Translations under genes and position numbers: made by a program
Shown here: piece by piece, positions 48,624 through 53,978 of the stretch
How positions within the stretch are numbered: the stretch's first letter is position 1
Layout: each line of letters starts with the position of its first letter
Source of the DNA: Allokutzneria sp. A3M-2-11 16
Lineage (GTDB): Bacteria; Actinomycetota; Actinomycetes; Mycobacteriales; Pseudonocardiaceae
NCBI RefSeq assembly: GCF_024213555.1
Contig: NZ_JANAVO010000008.1
Span: 1 to 64,000 of the forward strand
Direction of reading: 5' to 3'
Length of the DNA: 64,000 nucleotides
The notes under the pieces: model-generated
Database searches by the model: none
What the model was told of the DNA's origin: nothing
The model's input: only the letters and a program-made list of their open reading frames with translations

Positions 48624-49202
48624 GTGACGCGGTTGGAGGCTTCGCGACGACGCGAGCAGATCGTGGCCGCGGCGCACCAGGTGCTCGTCGAGCAGGGCGT
48701 GCCGGCCGCGACCACCAGGCGCATCGCGGCGGAGGCCGGGGTCACCGTCGGGCTGATCCACTACCACTTCGCCACCAAGGACGAGCTGTTCGCCGAGGTG
48801 CTCGCCCGGTCGACCGGCGCGCTGGTGGAGGCGGTGCGCACCACCTCCGCCGAGGGCAGCAGCCTCGAGGACTGCGTGCGCGACCTGCTGGCGCGCGCCG
48901 TGCGGCGCTCCGGGGTGCTGCTCGGGCAGCTCCAGCTCACGATCGCGGTGATGCGCAGCCCGGAGCTGGCGCCGCTGGCCACCGCGAAGTACCGGGACGT
49001 GGTCGGCGCGCTGGCCCAGCGGTTCCGGGTGACGCCGAACCCTCCGGCCGACCCCGAAGCGCTGGCATTGGCGTTCCTGACGGTGGCGGACGGCCTCGTG
49101 GTGATCGCTTCGGCGCTACCGGAGGCGAGCGGGTTGGTGGCCGCGGCCGAACGAACGATTCTCTCGGGTGCCGCTCTGGGGCCCGGGAGCCCCGGCAATT
49201 AA
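48624..49202 (+). CDS. TetR-family regulator
   Basis: 192 residues. HTH at about 8-55: REQIVAAAHQVLVEQGVPAA, TRRIAAEAGVTVGLIHYHFATKDEL with the GLIHYHF recognition helix. The C-terminal domain is of the general ligand-binding kind. Positioned head-to-head with the desaturase gene and ahead of the PSD-like/amidinotransferase-like pair (about 120-base gap), so it may control either or both. Confidence 0.9.
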   Translation: MTRLEASRRREQIVAAAHQVLVEQGVPAATTRRIAAEAGVTVGLIHYHFATKDELFAEVLARSTGALVEAVRTTSAEGSSLEDCVRDLLARAVRRSGVLLGQLQLTIAVMRSPELAPLATAKYRDVVGALAQRFRVTPNPPADPEALALAFLTVADGLVVIASALPEASGLVAAAERTILSGAALGPGSPGN

Positions 49203-49320: not shown

Positions 49321-50070
49321 ATGGCCCAATCCCTGGAGTCGTGGATCGAATCCGACGTCCGGCCCTTCGAGGACAAATCGCTGTCGTATTTGTCTCAATA
49401 TCATTTCTTTCGGGATCCGACAAGGCCGGTGTCCAGCGACCCCGGCGTGTTCTTCTCCCCGGCCGATGGCATCCTGCTCTACCAGGGCGTCGTCAAGCCG
49501 GACGAGCCGGTCATGGAGATCAAGGGCGTGCCGTACACGCCCCGCGTGGCGTTACGTGAGCCGGATTTCGACCGGCTCAGCCTCGTCATCGGGATCTTCA
49601 TGACGTTTTTCGACGTCCACGTCAACAGAATTCCTTATTCTGGAAGGCTGTCCTGGCGGGCGGTCGAGCCGATCGACACGCTCAACCATCCGATGCTGGC
49701 GATGGAGCAGGACCTGTTGACGGAGTTGCGCATCGATCCGGACCGGGCCGGATACCTGCATCACAACCAGCGCATGGTGAACCGGATCGACGTGCCCGCG
49801 CTGCGCCAGTCCTACTACGTCCTGCAGATCGCCGACCACGACGTCGACGCCATCACCCCGTTCGGCCTGCGCCAGCACCGGCCGGTGTTCCAGGGGCGGC
49901 GGTTCTCCCAGATCCGCTACGGCTCCCAGGTGGAGCTGGTCATCCCGCTGTCGGAGCACGTGGAGTTCGTGCCGCTGCAGCGGACCGGGACGCACGTGCA
50001 GGCCGGGGTCGACCCCCTGGTCCGCGTGCGCTTCCCCGACCACGAGCAGGAAGGAGGCACAGCGGCATGA
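49321..50070 (+). CDS. Phosphatidylserine decarboxylase-like pyruvoyl proenzyme
   Basis: 249 residues. PSD fold: FFSPADGILLYQGVVK (Asp49), FMTFFDVHVNRIPYSG (His100) and the self-cleavage site RYGSQVEL (Gly201-Ser202). The Asp-His-Ser processing triad of PSDs is therefore intact, but the usual LGST/GSS is GSQ. Self-cleavage would give a pyruvoyl beta/alpha pair able to decarboxylate an amino-acid-like substrate. Housekeeping PSDs have a membrane-associating front; here the front is short and soluble. ATGA overlap with the next gene. Substrate unknown; decarboxylation of free amino acids is possible. Confidence 0.82.
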   Translation: MAQSLESWIESDVRPFEDKSLSYLSQYHFFRDPTRPVSSDPGVFFSPADGILLYQGVVKPDEPVMEIKGVPYTPRVALREPDFDRLSLVIGIFMTFFDVHVNRIPYSGRLSWRAVEPIDTLNHPMLAMEQDLLTELRIDPDRAGYLHHNQRMVNRIDVPALRQSYYVLQIADHDVDAITPFGLRQHRPVFQGRRFSQIRYGSQVELVIPLSEHVEFVPLQRTGTHVQAGVDPLVRVRFPDHEQEGGTAA

Positions 50071-51017
50071 TCGCCGTTGTCCCACCGCAGCCCTCCCTGG
50101 ACCCGTGGGAGCCCGCGCTGCTGCCCGCCAACCCCAGCCAGCTGACGCGGCCCGCGTTCCTGATGAACGCGCCGTTCTCCTGGCCGGTGCCGAGGGCGCA
50201 GCCCGCGGAGCGGGTGCCCCGGCCGCGGCGGGCGTTCGCGCAGTTCTTCGACCTCTACCACCTGGTCGCGGCCGAGGCGCTGGTGACGGTCCTGCCGACG
50301 CCGGGCCTGACCGGCGTGCCCGACCTGGTCTTCACCGCGAACCTCGGTGTGGTGCTCGAACACCTCAATGAGCGCGACACGGTGGTGATCTCCAACCAGG
50401 CAGACGAGGTCCGGCGCGCGGAGGCGGCCGTGGGGGCCGACTTCTTCCGCGCGATGGGTTACCGCACGCACGTGCCGGAGGGGCGCTTCGGCGGCGAGGC
50501 GGACCTGAAACACCTGCGCGGCAACGTCTACGCCGGTGGTCACGGCCGGTTCTCGGAGCCCGAGACCTACGACTGGATGGAAGGCGCCTTCGAGATGGAG
50601 GTGGTCCGGCTCGCGCTCACCGATCCCGGGCTGTCCCGCCTCGACCAGGTGCTCTTCCCGCTGACCAAGGAGAAGACGCTGGTGTGCACCGAGCTCTTCG
50701 AGCGGGCGGAGCTCGCCGCGCTGGAGCGGCACACCGAGATCGTTCAAGTGTCCATTGAGGACTGTCGAGCGGGGGCGTGCGGCTCGGTCCGGCTGCACAA
50801 CGTCTGGCTGAACTCCTCGCACGTGCACGACCTGCGGGCGGGAACCGAGGAGTACCAACGGGAAGTCGCCAAGAACCGGCGCATCGAGGACATCGCGGCC
50901 ACGCTGGCCTTCGAGGTGAACTACGTGAACCTCTCCGAGTACCGCGACCACGGCGCGCAGCTCTCGGCGCTGCTGCTGCACCTCAACCGGTTCTCGTACG
51001 CGTTCCAGCTGCTGTGA
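50067..51017 (+). CDS. Amidinotransferase/DDAH-fold protein lacking catalytic His and Cys
   Basis: 316 residues of the guanidine-modifying pentein fold: VPDLVFTANLGVVL, FGGEADLKHLRGNVYAGGHG (Glu144, Asp146 kept), then SRLDQVLFPL where HLD is expected, and a C-terminal DHGAQLSALLL where GGxxxC is expected. By this alignment the catalytic His is Arg191 and the Cys nucleophile is Ser300. It is probably not a standard arginine deiminase or DDAH, and may be a pseudoenzyme or use new chemistry. Start overlaps the PSD-like stop by 4 bases. Confidence 0.8.
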   Translation: MIAVVPPQPSLDPWEPALLPANPSQLTRPAFLMNAPFSWPVPRAQPAERVPRPRRAFAQFFDLYHLVAAEALVTVLPTPGLTGVPDLVFTANLGVVLEHLNERDTVVISNQADEVRRAEAAVGADFFRAMGYRTHVPEGRFGGEADLKHLRGNVYAGGHGRFSEPETYDWMEGAFEMEVVRLALTDPGLSRLDQVLFPLTKEKTLVCTELFERAELAALERHTEIVQVSIEDCRAGACGSVRLHNVWLNSSHVHDLRAGTEEYQREVAKNRRIEDIAATLAFEVNYVNLSEYRDHGAQLSALLLHLNRFSYAFQLL

Positions 51018-52803: not shown

Positions 52804-53112
52804 ATGAGCGAGCAGACTGTCACCGCCGCCCCTTCCAAGACGGTCGCGGTGGTCAACGCCTTCGTCGCCGAGCACGGTGACCCCACCCGTGCCGTCATCC
52901 AGTACATGGGCAACGCGGGGGTCCGGCTGACCCTCGTCGGCTCCGACGGCGCGCTCGGTGACGTGGTCGTCGCCGACGTGGCCACCGCCGAGGCGGTCTG
53001 CGCCGCTGTCGACGGGGTCCGGGTCTCGGAGTGGGACCGCGAGACCGTCGCAGCCACCGTGATCGGCCCCGAGCACCGCCGCAAGATGGCCGGTTCCAGA
53101 GCCCGCCGGTGA
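52804..53112 (+). CDS. Conserved hypothetical protein
   Basis: 102 residues. VAVVNAFVAEHGDPTRAVIQYMG, RLTLVGSDGALGDVVVADV and VSEWDRETVAATVIGPEHR give an alternating alpha-beta pattern, with a basic tail. Not recognised; no signal, membrane segment or metal motif. Overlaps the ATP-grasp gene by GTGA, so the two are co-translated. Confidence 0.75.
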   Translation: MSEQTVTAAPSKTVAVVNAFVAEHGDPTRAVIQYMGNAGVRLTLVGSDGALGDVVVADVATAEAVCAAVDGVRVSEWDRETVAATVIGPEHRRKMAGSRARR

Positions 53113-53978
53113 GCCCTCGCGTCCTGCTGGCCTCGTGTGCGGAACTCCCGGAAAGCGACGGCGATGACACGCCGCTCCCCGCGGTGCTCGCCGAGGTCGG
53201 CATCAAGGCCGAGTGGATGCCGTGGGATGCCATCCGTGAGCCTGCGAACCTCGTGGTACTCCGTTCCACTTGGGACTACCCACTGCGCCGCGACGAGTTC
53301 CTGACGTGGTGCGACAGCATTCCCGCTCTGTCCAACAGTGCAGATTTGGTGCGGTGGAACACCGACAAGGCGTACATGGCGGACCTCGCCGCGACGGGCC
53401 TTCCCGTGGTGCCGACGCGCTTGCTGCCGCCCGGTGCGGAGCTGGAGCCATACGACACCGAGATCGCGCTGAAGCCTGCCGTGGGCGCGGGTTCGCAGGG
53501 CGCGGGCCGGTTCTTGCCGGAGGAGCGTGAACGCGCGGTGGCACACGTCGCCGCACTGCACGCTCAGGGCCGCACCGTGGTCCTCCAGCCCTATCAGCCC
53601 GCGGTGGATCAGGAGGGGGAGACGGCGCTCGTCTTCTTCGGCGGCCGGTACTCGCACGGGTTCGTGAAGGGGCCGATGCTGCCGCGCGGTGAAGTCGAGA
53701 TGTCCACGTTGTTCGTGGACGAGCGGCTCAAGCCGGTCATCCCGGACGCTGCCCGGCGCGTGCTCGCCGAGGACGCGTTGGACGCCGCGTGCGGCGTCCA
53801 CGGCATCGAGCGCTCGGAGCTGCTGTACGCGCGAGTGGACGTGCTGACCGGCACGGAGGGTGCCCCGGTGCTGCTCGAACTGGAGCTGGCGGAGCCTTCG
53901 CTCGGGTTCCGGCAGGCCGATCCGGGCGCGCTGTTGCGCTTCGCCTCCGCCGTGCGGGCGGAGCTCGCGCGCCGCTGA
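53109..53978 (+). CDS. ATP-grasp ligase-like protein
   Basis: 289 residues from GTG 53109. ATP-grasp layout: NLVVLRSTWDYPLRRDEFL and the N(S)xxxxxWNTDKAYM stretch, IALKPAVGAGSQGAGRF (nucleotide-binding loop), VVLQPYQPAVDQEGETALVFFGG and ELLYARVDVL...LLELELAEPSLGF (metal-binding Glu). Members ligate an amino acid or carboxylate to an amine using ATP. Substrate unknown. Co-translated with the preceding small protein, which lacks precursor-peptide features. Confidence 0.85.
   Translation: MSPRVLLASCAELPESDGDDTPLPAVLAEVGIKAEWMPWDAIREPANLVVLRSTWDYPLRRDEFLTWCDSIPALSNSADLVRWNTDKAYMADLAATGLPVVPTRLLPPGAELEPYDTEIALKPAVGAGSQGAGRFLPEERERAVAHVAALHAQGRTVVLQPYQPAVDQEGETALVFFGGRYSHGFVKGPMLPRGEVEMSTLFVDERLKPVIPDAARRVLAEDALDAACGVHGIERSELLYARVDVLTGTEGAPVLLELELAEPSLGFRQADPGALLRFASAVRAELARR

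Follow-up and report, generated by a model that had tools for sequence, protein, structure and literature searches.

Why should a bacterium translate a pentein-fold protein that has lost its catalytic residues together with a pyruvoyl proenzyme that looks intact? The question is raised by two genes in the 64,000-nucleotide stretch of Allokutzneria sp. A3M-2-11 16 analysed here (the window). The first gene (49321..50070, + strand) encodes a 249-residue proenzyme with the phosphatidylserine decarboxylase (PSD) fold, and the second (50067..51017, +) a 316-residue pentein-fold, ArgZ-like protein whose sequence and AlphaFold2 fold identify it as a catalytically inactivated copy. The stop and start codons of the two genes overlap as ATGA (50067..50070, +); both reading frames and the overlap, as described in an earlier note on this DNA, are borne out by the sequence. 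A 4-base overlap was also found in 8 of 11 paired relatives, for which the start codons were chosen by script, and the PSD-like gene begins with ATG in 12 of 12, window copy included. Upstream, on the same strand, lies a gene for a TetR-family protein (48624..49202, +; Pfam TetR_N). It occupies the same place in both other Allokutzneria genomes, conservation of the link was seen only within the genus, and its product is a possible regulator of the pair.

The first protein is a member of Pfam family PF02666 (81.4 bits, gathering cut-off 22) that missed every listed NCBIfam PSD equivalog cut-off, its best score being 66.1 against 183. Its structural model (pLDDT 82.5) gave ten fold matches at E <0.001, all of them to E. 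coli PSD and with modest TM-scores (0.40-0.46). The residues of the predicted self-processing set, which the earlier note had listed as Asp-His-Ser, are all present: Asp49 (codon 49465-49467, +), His100 (49618-49620, +) and Ser202 of the YGSQ motif (49924..49926, +), the GS of which is found in 69/69 aligned family members. As in PSDs, Ser202 would be the site of self-cleavage and the source of the pyruvoyl group, and cleavage there is predicted for the window protein. The same note had remarked that GSQ replaces GST. GSQ is indeed present, but it is not unusual: in the aligned set (four fragments left out) 63 of 69 members carry GSQ and the other six GSM, and ten of ten ordinary PSDs of related genomes carry GSR, not GST. 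We thus ruled out GSQ as a defect, and the PSD-like partner looks intact. An alignment with the same ten PSDs, inspected by eye, shows that the N-terminal hydrophobic segment of ordinary PSDs is absent from the PSD-like protein.

For the second protein, the amidinotransferase or pentein fold proposed earlier was confirmed by a high-confidence AlphaFold2 model (pLDDT 90.1), whose top PDB matches are the ArgZ entries 6jv1 and 6jv0 (6jv1: E 2e-20, TM 0.74/0.85). ArgZ and AgrE were also found in the PDB by sequence, and AgrE bound to ornithine appears among the PDB titles of the fold matches. Matches of the window copy to curated families are all weak, the best being to arginine dihydrolase (NF052232; 56 bits, cut-off 450). 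To place its residues we used an alignment of 89 pentein sequences, of which six fragments (L089, L113, L127, L128, L141, L146) were left out; among the remaining 83, 79 of them different, 76 keep both the catalytic His and the catalytic Cys. These 76 are defined as intact by His191 and Cys301 (window numbering), and the other columns are independent of that division. ArgZ residue numbers come from counting along a sequence alignment in which PDB titles fix N71 and C264; the functional roles assigned to the columns of N22, R90, E118, R139 and H168 are our assumption.

Five of the seven ArgZ columns (N22, N71, R90, E118, R139, H168, C264) are lost in the window pentein. Arg191 (50637..50639, +) stands in the catalytic-His column (H168; His in 76/76 intact members), as had been noted, and Gly142 (50490..50492, +) in the E118 column (Glu in 76/76). 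Two further losses had been missed: Phe162 (50550..50552, +) replaces the equivalent of R139 (Arg in 76/76), and the NNxWM loop, which carries the N22 equivalent and whose second Asn is found in all 76 intact members, is deleted. The earlier note had also put Ser300 in the catalytic-Cys column, which is the wrong column: HMM alignment to 6jv0 places C264 opposite Ala301 (Ser300-Ala301, 50964..50969, +), where 76/76 intact members have Cys, and Ser300 is the invariant Ser that precedes it. Ser300 was accordingly rejected as an alternative nucleophile, being invariant beside the Cys of intact enzymes; neither an intact His/Cys pair elsewhere in the protein nor another Cys special to dead copies was seen in the alignment, inspected by eye. 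Pro85, Gly239 and Asp294 occupy positions that are Gln, Asn and Lys in 76/76 intact members. The window copy retains Asn92 (the N71 column, Asn in 75/76), Arg116 (the R90 column), Asp86, Glu144 and Asp193, so that the statement that the acidic pentein residues are kept holds for the last three and fails for the equivalent of E118. In sum, the window pentein has lost its nucleophile, its base and its substrate-binding residues.

That a dead pentein is the nature of the system, as had been supposed, is not supported: 76 of 83 full-length relatives keep His and Cys. All seven degenerate copies come from the window organism's own family: the three Allokutzneria copies (window, L052, L053) have R191 and A301, L056 has R191 and keeps the Cys, and L059, L061 (S301) and L060 (R301) keep the His. 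Among the 83 aligned sequences Arg191 occurs in the Allokutzneria copies and L056, GSQ is conserved in the partner, and Ser300 is invariant, but beside the Cys. The residue losses of the window copy are shared by three Allokutzneria species, which is above chance. In the tree the dead state requires at least two origins, L056 lying apart from the other six; these six join on long branches and may themselves represent more than one origin. Of 51 highly conserved columns, 38 are kept in the window copy, 36-43 in each of the other dead copies and 48-51 in each of eleven intact controls. Distances of the PSD-like and pentein proteins correlate over 62 loci (r 0.79, species history uncorrected), a result to which we give no weight. 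PSD Tyr173 was considered as a co-varying position (changed in 6/7 dead pairs against 2/58) and dropped, because 108 of 121 phage members have Glu there and the phage penteins keep the Cys.

We then asked how general the pairing is. In a sample of 150 genomes of relatives, the window's own included, there were strong matches to 14 pentein and 12 PSD-like genes, and all 12 PSD-like genes adjoin a pentein gene, which is above chance. The two lone penteins (L062, L063) are intact, belong to a related actinobacterial genus and stand in a row with an Orn/Arg/DAP-type PLP decarboxylase (L062:7029-10325, L063:9638-12934), together with a GNAT acetyltransferase identified by scanning L062. In the phylum sample the genes are rare: at E 1e-30 the pentein was found in 3 and the PSD-like protein in 2 of 396 genomes, again with the window's own counted. 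Across named genomes, the best 80 of 92 relatives were kept as loci, many of them in metagenome bins and seven (L064, L083, L086, L097, L112, L119, L125) also present in the relatives sample. Loci were sought with peptide patterns that surround the Cys and Glu sites, so that strongly degenerate copies may have escaped and the share of dead copies may be underestimated; partners were called from phmmer searches with selected queries (E 1e-10), a setting at which remote ones can be missed. These 80 of 92 loci span Actinomycetota, Acidobacteriota, Verrucomicrobiota, Gemmatimonadota, Pseudomonadota (among them Xenorhabdus and Photorhabdus), Campylobacterota, Bacteroidota, Cyanobacteriota and others. 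A PSD-like gene stands alongside the pentein on the same strand in 67 of these best 80. The homologues therefore do occur as a pair, and the claim that the two co-translated genes form a functional unit is supported. In 4/80 of the same set, all cyanobacterial (L129 and L138 by Pfam scan, L136 and L137 by similarity), a PLP decarboxylase of the LysA/ODC type is found instead; three loci (L087, L113, L114) lack a decarboxylase at or near a contig edge, and in six (L079, L090, L124, L140, L142, L143) neither type was found in the fetched flank. A gene for a MATE (46) or ABC (19) transporter lies within 1.6 kb at 65 of these 80 loci, on the same strand in 53 and on the opposite strand in 12.

Several loci depart from this arrangement in their neighbours or gene order. 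At the cyanobacterial loci L129, L136 and L138, the pentein and LysA/ODC-type decarboxylase genes are accompanied by an agmatine-deiminase-like gene and ABC transporter genes. In Prevotella (L140, L142, L143) the pentein gene has on one side the gene of a MATE protein that carries a HATPase domain and on the other that of a condensation-domain protein (domains scanned in L140, the others by similarity), and no PSD-like gene was found at these three loci. At the Bacteroides-type loci the gene order is reversed, and in L130-L135 a penicillin-amidase-type protein gene precedes the pentein gene and a MATE-like gene follows the PSD-like gene (L130 scanned, the others by similarity). The condensation-domain or penicillin-amidase neighbours suggest other end products in Prevotella, Cylindrospermum and Bacteroides. 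In Photorhabdus tasmaniensis (L116:592-2435) an opposite-strand ORF of 345 aa separates two pieces of the PSD-like gene, and the pentein and ABC exporter genes are open. L126, which has a gene for a Gp23 capsid protein, is likely to be a phage contig.

The pair is also found in phages. With Xenorhabdus queries, 45 of 50,697 phage records matched the pentein and 45 the PSD-like protein, both in 44 and either in 46. These are Campylobacter phages, some of them represented by both a GenBank and a RefSeq record, together with six Bacteroides phages, and thus amount to few independent lineages. A second pentein query recovered one Xanthomonas phage record (25% identity, annotated DDAH), which is absent from the PSD-like records. 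In the ten Campylobacter phage records measured, the shorter of the two distances between the genes is about 39-47 kb; in the one Bacteroides phage measured they are adjacent. From IMG/VR, the best 80 were kept of 185 and of 198 relatives, and 30 same-contig loci were removed by hand from 152 to leave 122 contigs. Within that best-80 selection both genes were present on 120 of the 122 contigs, the two exceptions lying at a contig edge; a Gp23-type major capsid cluster lies upstream in 104/120 and a PhoH cluster downstream in 100/120, each cluster being named from one scanned example. Ten scanned examples of phage neighbours included no exporter and no further pathway enzyme. Phage penteins have the Cys in 121/121 and the His in 117/121, the remainder being gaps. 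In PHROGs, where one example of each family was looked up, both are entered as having unknown function.

We propose that the intact family catalyses a route from arginine to an amine. The ArgZ-like pentein would convert arginine to ornithine, since the ArgZ active-site columns are kept, and would act before the decarboxylase, since two Arg columns that we presume to bind carboxylate are kept. The soluble PSD-fold pyruvoyl enzyme would decarboxylate the product, in the simplest case ornithine to putrescine. Its substrate is likely to be a soluble amino acid because it is without the hydrophobic N-terminal segment of ordinary PSDs, and because an unrelated Orn/Arg/DAP-type PLP decarboxylase takes its place beside the same pentein, both in the four cyanobacterial loci of the best 80 of 92 and in L062/L063. 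Most bacterial loci add an exporter gene of the MATE or ABC type; in phages, a DNA-neutralising diamine would serve among the late head genes. In the window, the decarboxylase would remain active, its substrate coming from elsewhere in the cell, and the dead pentein would be retained as a structural or activating subunit. Of the two readings offered earlier, a pathway acting on arginine or another amino acid fits the family, and a dead partner subunit fits the window copy. Taken as a whole, an arginine-to-amine family with a window pair made of a working decarboxylase and a retained dead pentein is an explanation that we consider about evenly balanced between right and wrong.

Two other readings of the intact family have to be weighed against this route. 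The pentein might be a deiminase or an amidinotransferase, with the PSD-like protein acting on citrulline, a guanidino acid or arginine to give N-carbamoylputrescine, agmatine or another guanidino amine. Many phage records do name the gene an amidinotransferase, and the agmatine-deiminase-like gene adjoins three of the four cyanobacterial loci; the closest relative in both fold and sequence is nevertheless ArgZ rather than any amidinotransferase, and the Asn of the N71 column is kept in all but one intact member. We regard this reading as possible but on the unlikely side. Much less probable is a phospholipid pathway, in which the PSD-like protein would be a phosphatidylserine or archaetidylserine decarboxylase and the pentein would modify the headgroup. 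It draws on the Pfam membership and on a marine phage psd gene that, in the available part of PMC11360552, is treated as belonging to the phosphatidylethanolamine and phospholipid pathway, with negligible abundance. Against it stand the missed equivalog cut-offs and the existence of a separate ordinary PSD candidate in the window genome (G000:C11, 35% identity, E 9.8e-4), and the missing hydrophobic segment makes the lipid headgroup chemistry that had been suggested unlikely.

If the intact family is arginine-directed, what has become of the window copy? A further pair, of the intact type, lies elsewhere in the window genome (L051; G000:C33:153775-155500), directly followed by an ABC exporter gene. 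The window-type pair is present in 3/3 Allokutzneria genomes and the intact type in 1/3, one of the three genomes being a 480-contig draft; in two of the three the window-type pair is the only copy found. The window pair is a paralogue of the intact system, a pseudoenzyme variant. We rejected a plasmid home, since the pair matched no plasmid and nothing more than a 5% match was found outside the pair. The DUF885 and ATP-grasp genes downstream were considered as pathway members and rejected, as they lie beside the pair only within the genus (13 loci tested). The ATP-grasp protein (53031-53978, +) resembles DcsG, a D-cycloserine synthetase, though at 223 bits it stays under the cut-off of 360. 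A small ORF (52804-53109), 95% identical in another Allokutzneria genome, overlaps the start of this gene, whose true start is probably further in because matches begin at residue 18.

We next estimated selection on both genes by the Nei-Gojobori method. In three Allokutzneria comparisons dN/dS was 0.21, 0.33 and 0.32 for the dead pentein and 0.32, 0.25 and 0.23 for the PSD-like partner; single ratios are rough, since in the window/L052 comparison the dS values of the overlapping genes (0.06 and 0.22) differ fourfold. The window pentein is under purifying selection in the three genomes. For the other dead lineages, the comparisons L059/L061 and L056/L057 gave 0.58 and 0.585 for the pentein and 0.13 and 0.21 for the PSD-like gene, and intact penteins gave 0.245 (L062/L063) and 0.13 (L054/L055, at saturated dS). 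By this comparison the window pentein is under constraint, more so than the other dead penteins, which are nearer to relaxation. The dead copies also differ in their surroundings. In the best 80 of 92 named-genome loci, a MATE or ABC gene within 1.6 kb accompanies 0/4 dead and 65/76 intact penteins (Fisher p 0.0009, relatedness uncorrected). Within the window organism's family, a tally by hand gave 0/7 dead, the window copy itself among those with no exporter gene beside the pair, against 6/11 intact (p 0.04, relatedness likewise uncorrected; exporter at L051, L054, L055, L070, L080 and L082, none at L057, L058, L062, L063 and L067).

Because its catalysis is lost, a role as a partner or slow decay remain for the window pentein. 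The main rival is the latter: the decarboxylase alone would be useful, and the second gene would persist only through co-transcription. Consistent with decay, 12-13 of the 51 highly conserved columns are lost in the three Allokutzneria copies, no transporter gene lies near any of the seven dead loci, and the pentein dN/dS of the other dead lineages approaches relaxation. On the other hand, the reading frame is open in all seven dead copies, the Allokutzneria ratios are low, the fold of the window protein is predicted with high confidence, and the losses, while most of the conserved columns are kept, include most of the mapped active-site columns. Decay is therefore a reading that we find rather unlikely. 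A further alternative, that the protein has gained a new activity or senses a ligand, for instance by binding an arginine-like effector that controls the decarboxylase, would fit the retained fold, Asn92 and Arg116, and the fact that Allokutzneria and L056 show H191R, N239G and Q85P/R in parallel. However, with neither the substrate loop nor an equivalent of R139, the protein would bind a conventional guanidine ligand poorly, and we hold this alternative to be distinctly improbable. Constraint in three species favours a role over decay, and the loss of the active site in a protein kept by selection suggests that it may serve as a helper subunit. The dead pentein is thus probably kept as a structural or activating partner of the decarboxylase.

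Genes so far annotated separately, as PSD and as amidinotransferase or of unknown function, can now be seen as one unit, carried by bacteria, by phages of Campylobacter and Bacteroides and by many phage contigs that have a Gp23-type capsid gene. By supplying a natural pair with a dead pentein to set against those with a working one, the window copy makes it possible to ask if the pentein has a structural role as well. If the amine reading is true, the unit would add a new fold for amino-acid decarboxylation in polyamine metabolism, and the bacterial and phage genes of this family now annotated as phosphatidylserine decarboxylase, phage psd genes included, would have to be reread as polyamine enzymes. 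In the available part of PMC8503589, ornithine decarboxylase was then known only from two PLP folds, and the available parts of PMC10407285 and PMC9992855 describe SpeD-derived pyruvoyl ornithine and arginine decarboxylases in bacteria, archaea and phages. The term 'phosphatidylserine decarboxylase' was not found in the available text of PMC10407285, nor 'phosphatidylserine' or 'amidinotransferase' in that of PMC9992855, and a search of the CC-licensed PMC literature by titles and abstracts found no paper describing the PSD-like/pentein pair. The broadest claim, an unrecognised route from arginine to putrescine or a similar amine across many phyla and phages, many of them T4-like, with one Allokutzneria copy in which the decarboxylase has an obligate dead pentein, is tentative, and we think it somewhat less likely than its opposite.

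How does this system compare with those already described? ArgZ/AgrE of the cyanobacterial ornithine-ammonia cycle share the pentein fold, are the closest PDB relatives, and have the seven active-site columns that intact members keep. ArgZ couples the step from arginine to ornithine to the use of ornithine by a fused cyclodeaminase, whereas the family pentein stands alone beside a decarboxylase; the window copy differs further in falling below the curated cut-off and lacking five of the seven residues. The retention of a catalytically dead relative beside a working enzyme recalls the trypanosome prozymes, dead paralogues that activate the enzyme beside which they are kept, and RESC5, a pentein-fold protein among the fold matches of the window pentein that we take to be catalytically inactive. 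Unlike these, the window pentein is not a paralogue of the enzyme that it accompanies, which it would activate under our proposal. With phosphatidylserine decarboxylase (PF02666) the PSD-like protein shares the fold and the PADG, DVHxNR and GS self-processing motifs; it differs in its soluble-looking N-terminus, GSQ, extra internal segments and missed equivalog cut-offs, and in having an arginine-type enzyme as its genetic partner. A further analogy is with the SpeD-derived ornithine and arginine decarboxylases, which, as far as the available parts of PMC10407285 and PMC9992855 describe them, are pyruvoyl enzymes recruited to polyamine chemistry in bacteria and phages. Those enzymes have the AdoMetDC fold, whereas the PSD-like enzyme would reach its proposed polyamine product from the fold of a phospholipid enzyme.
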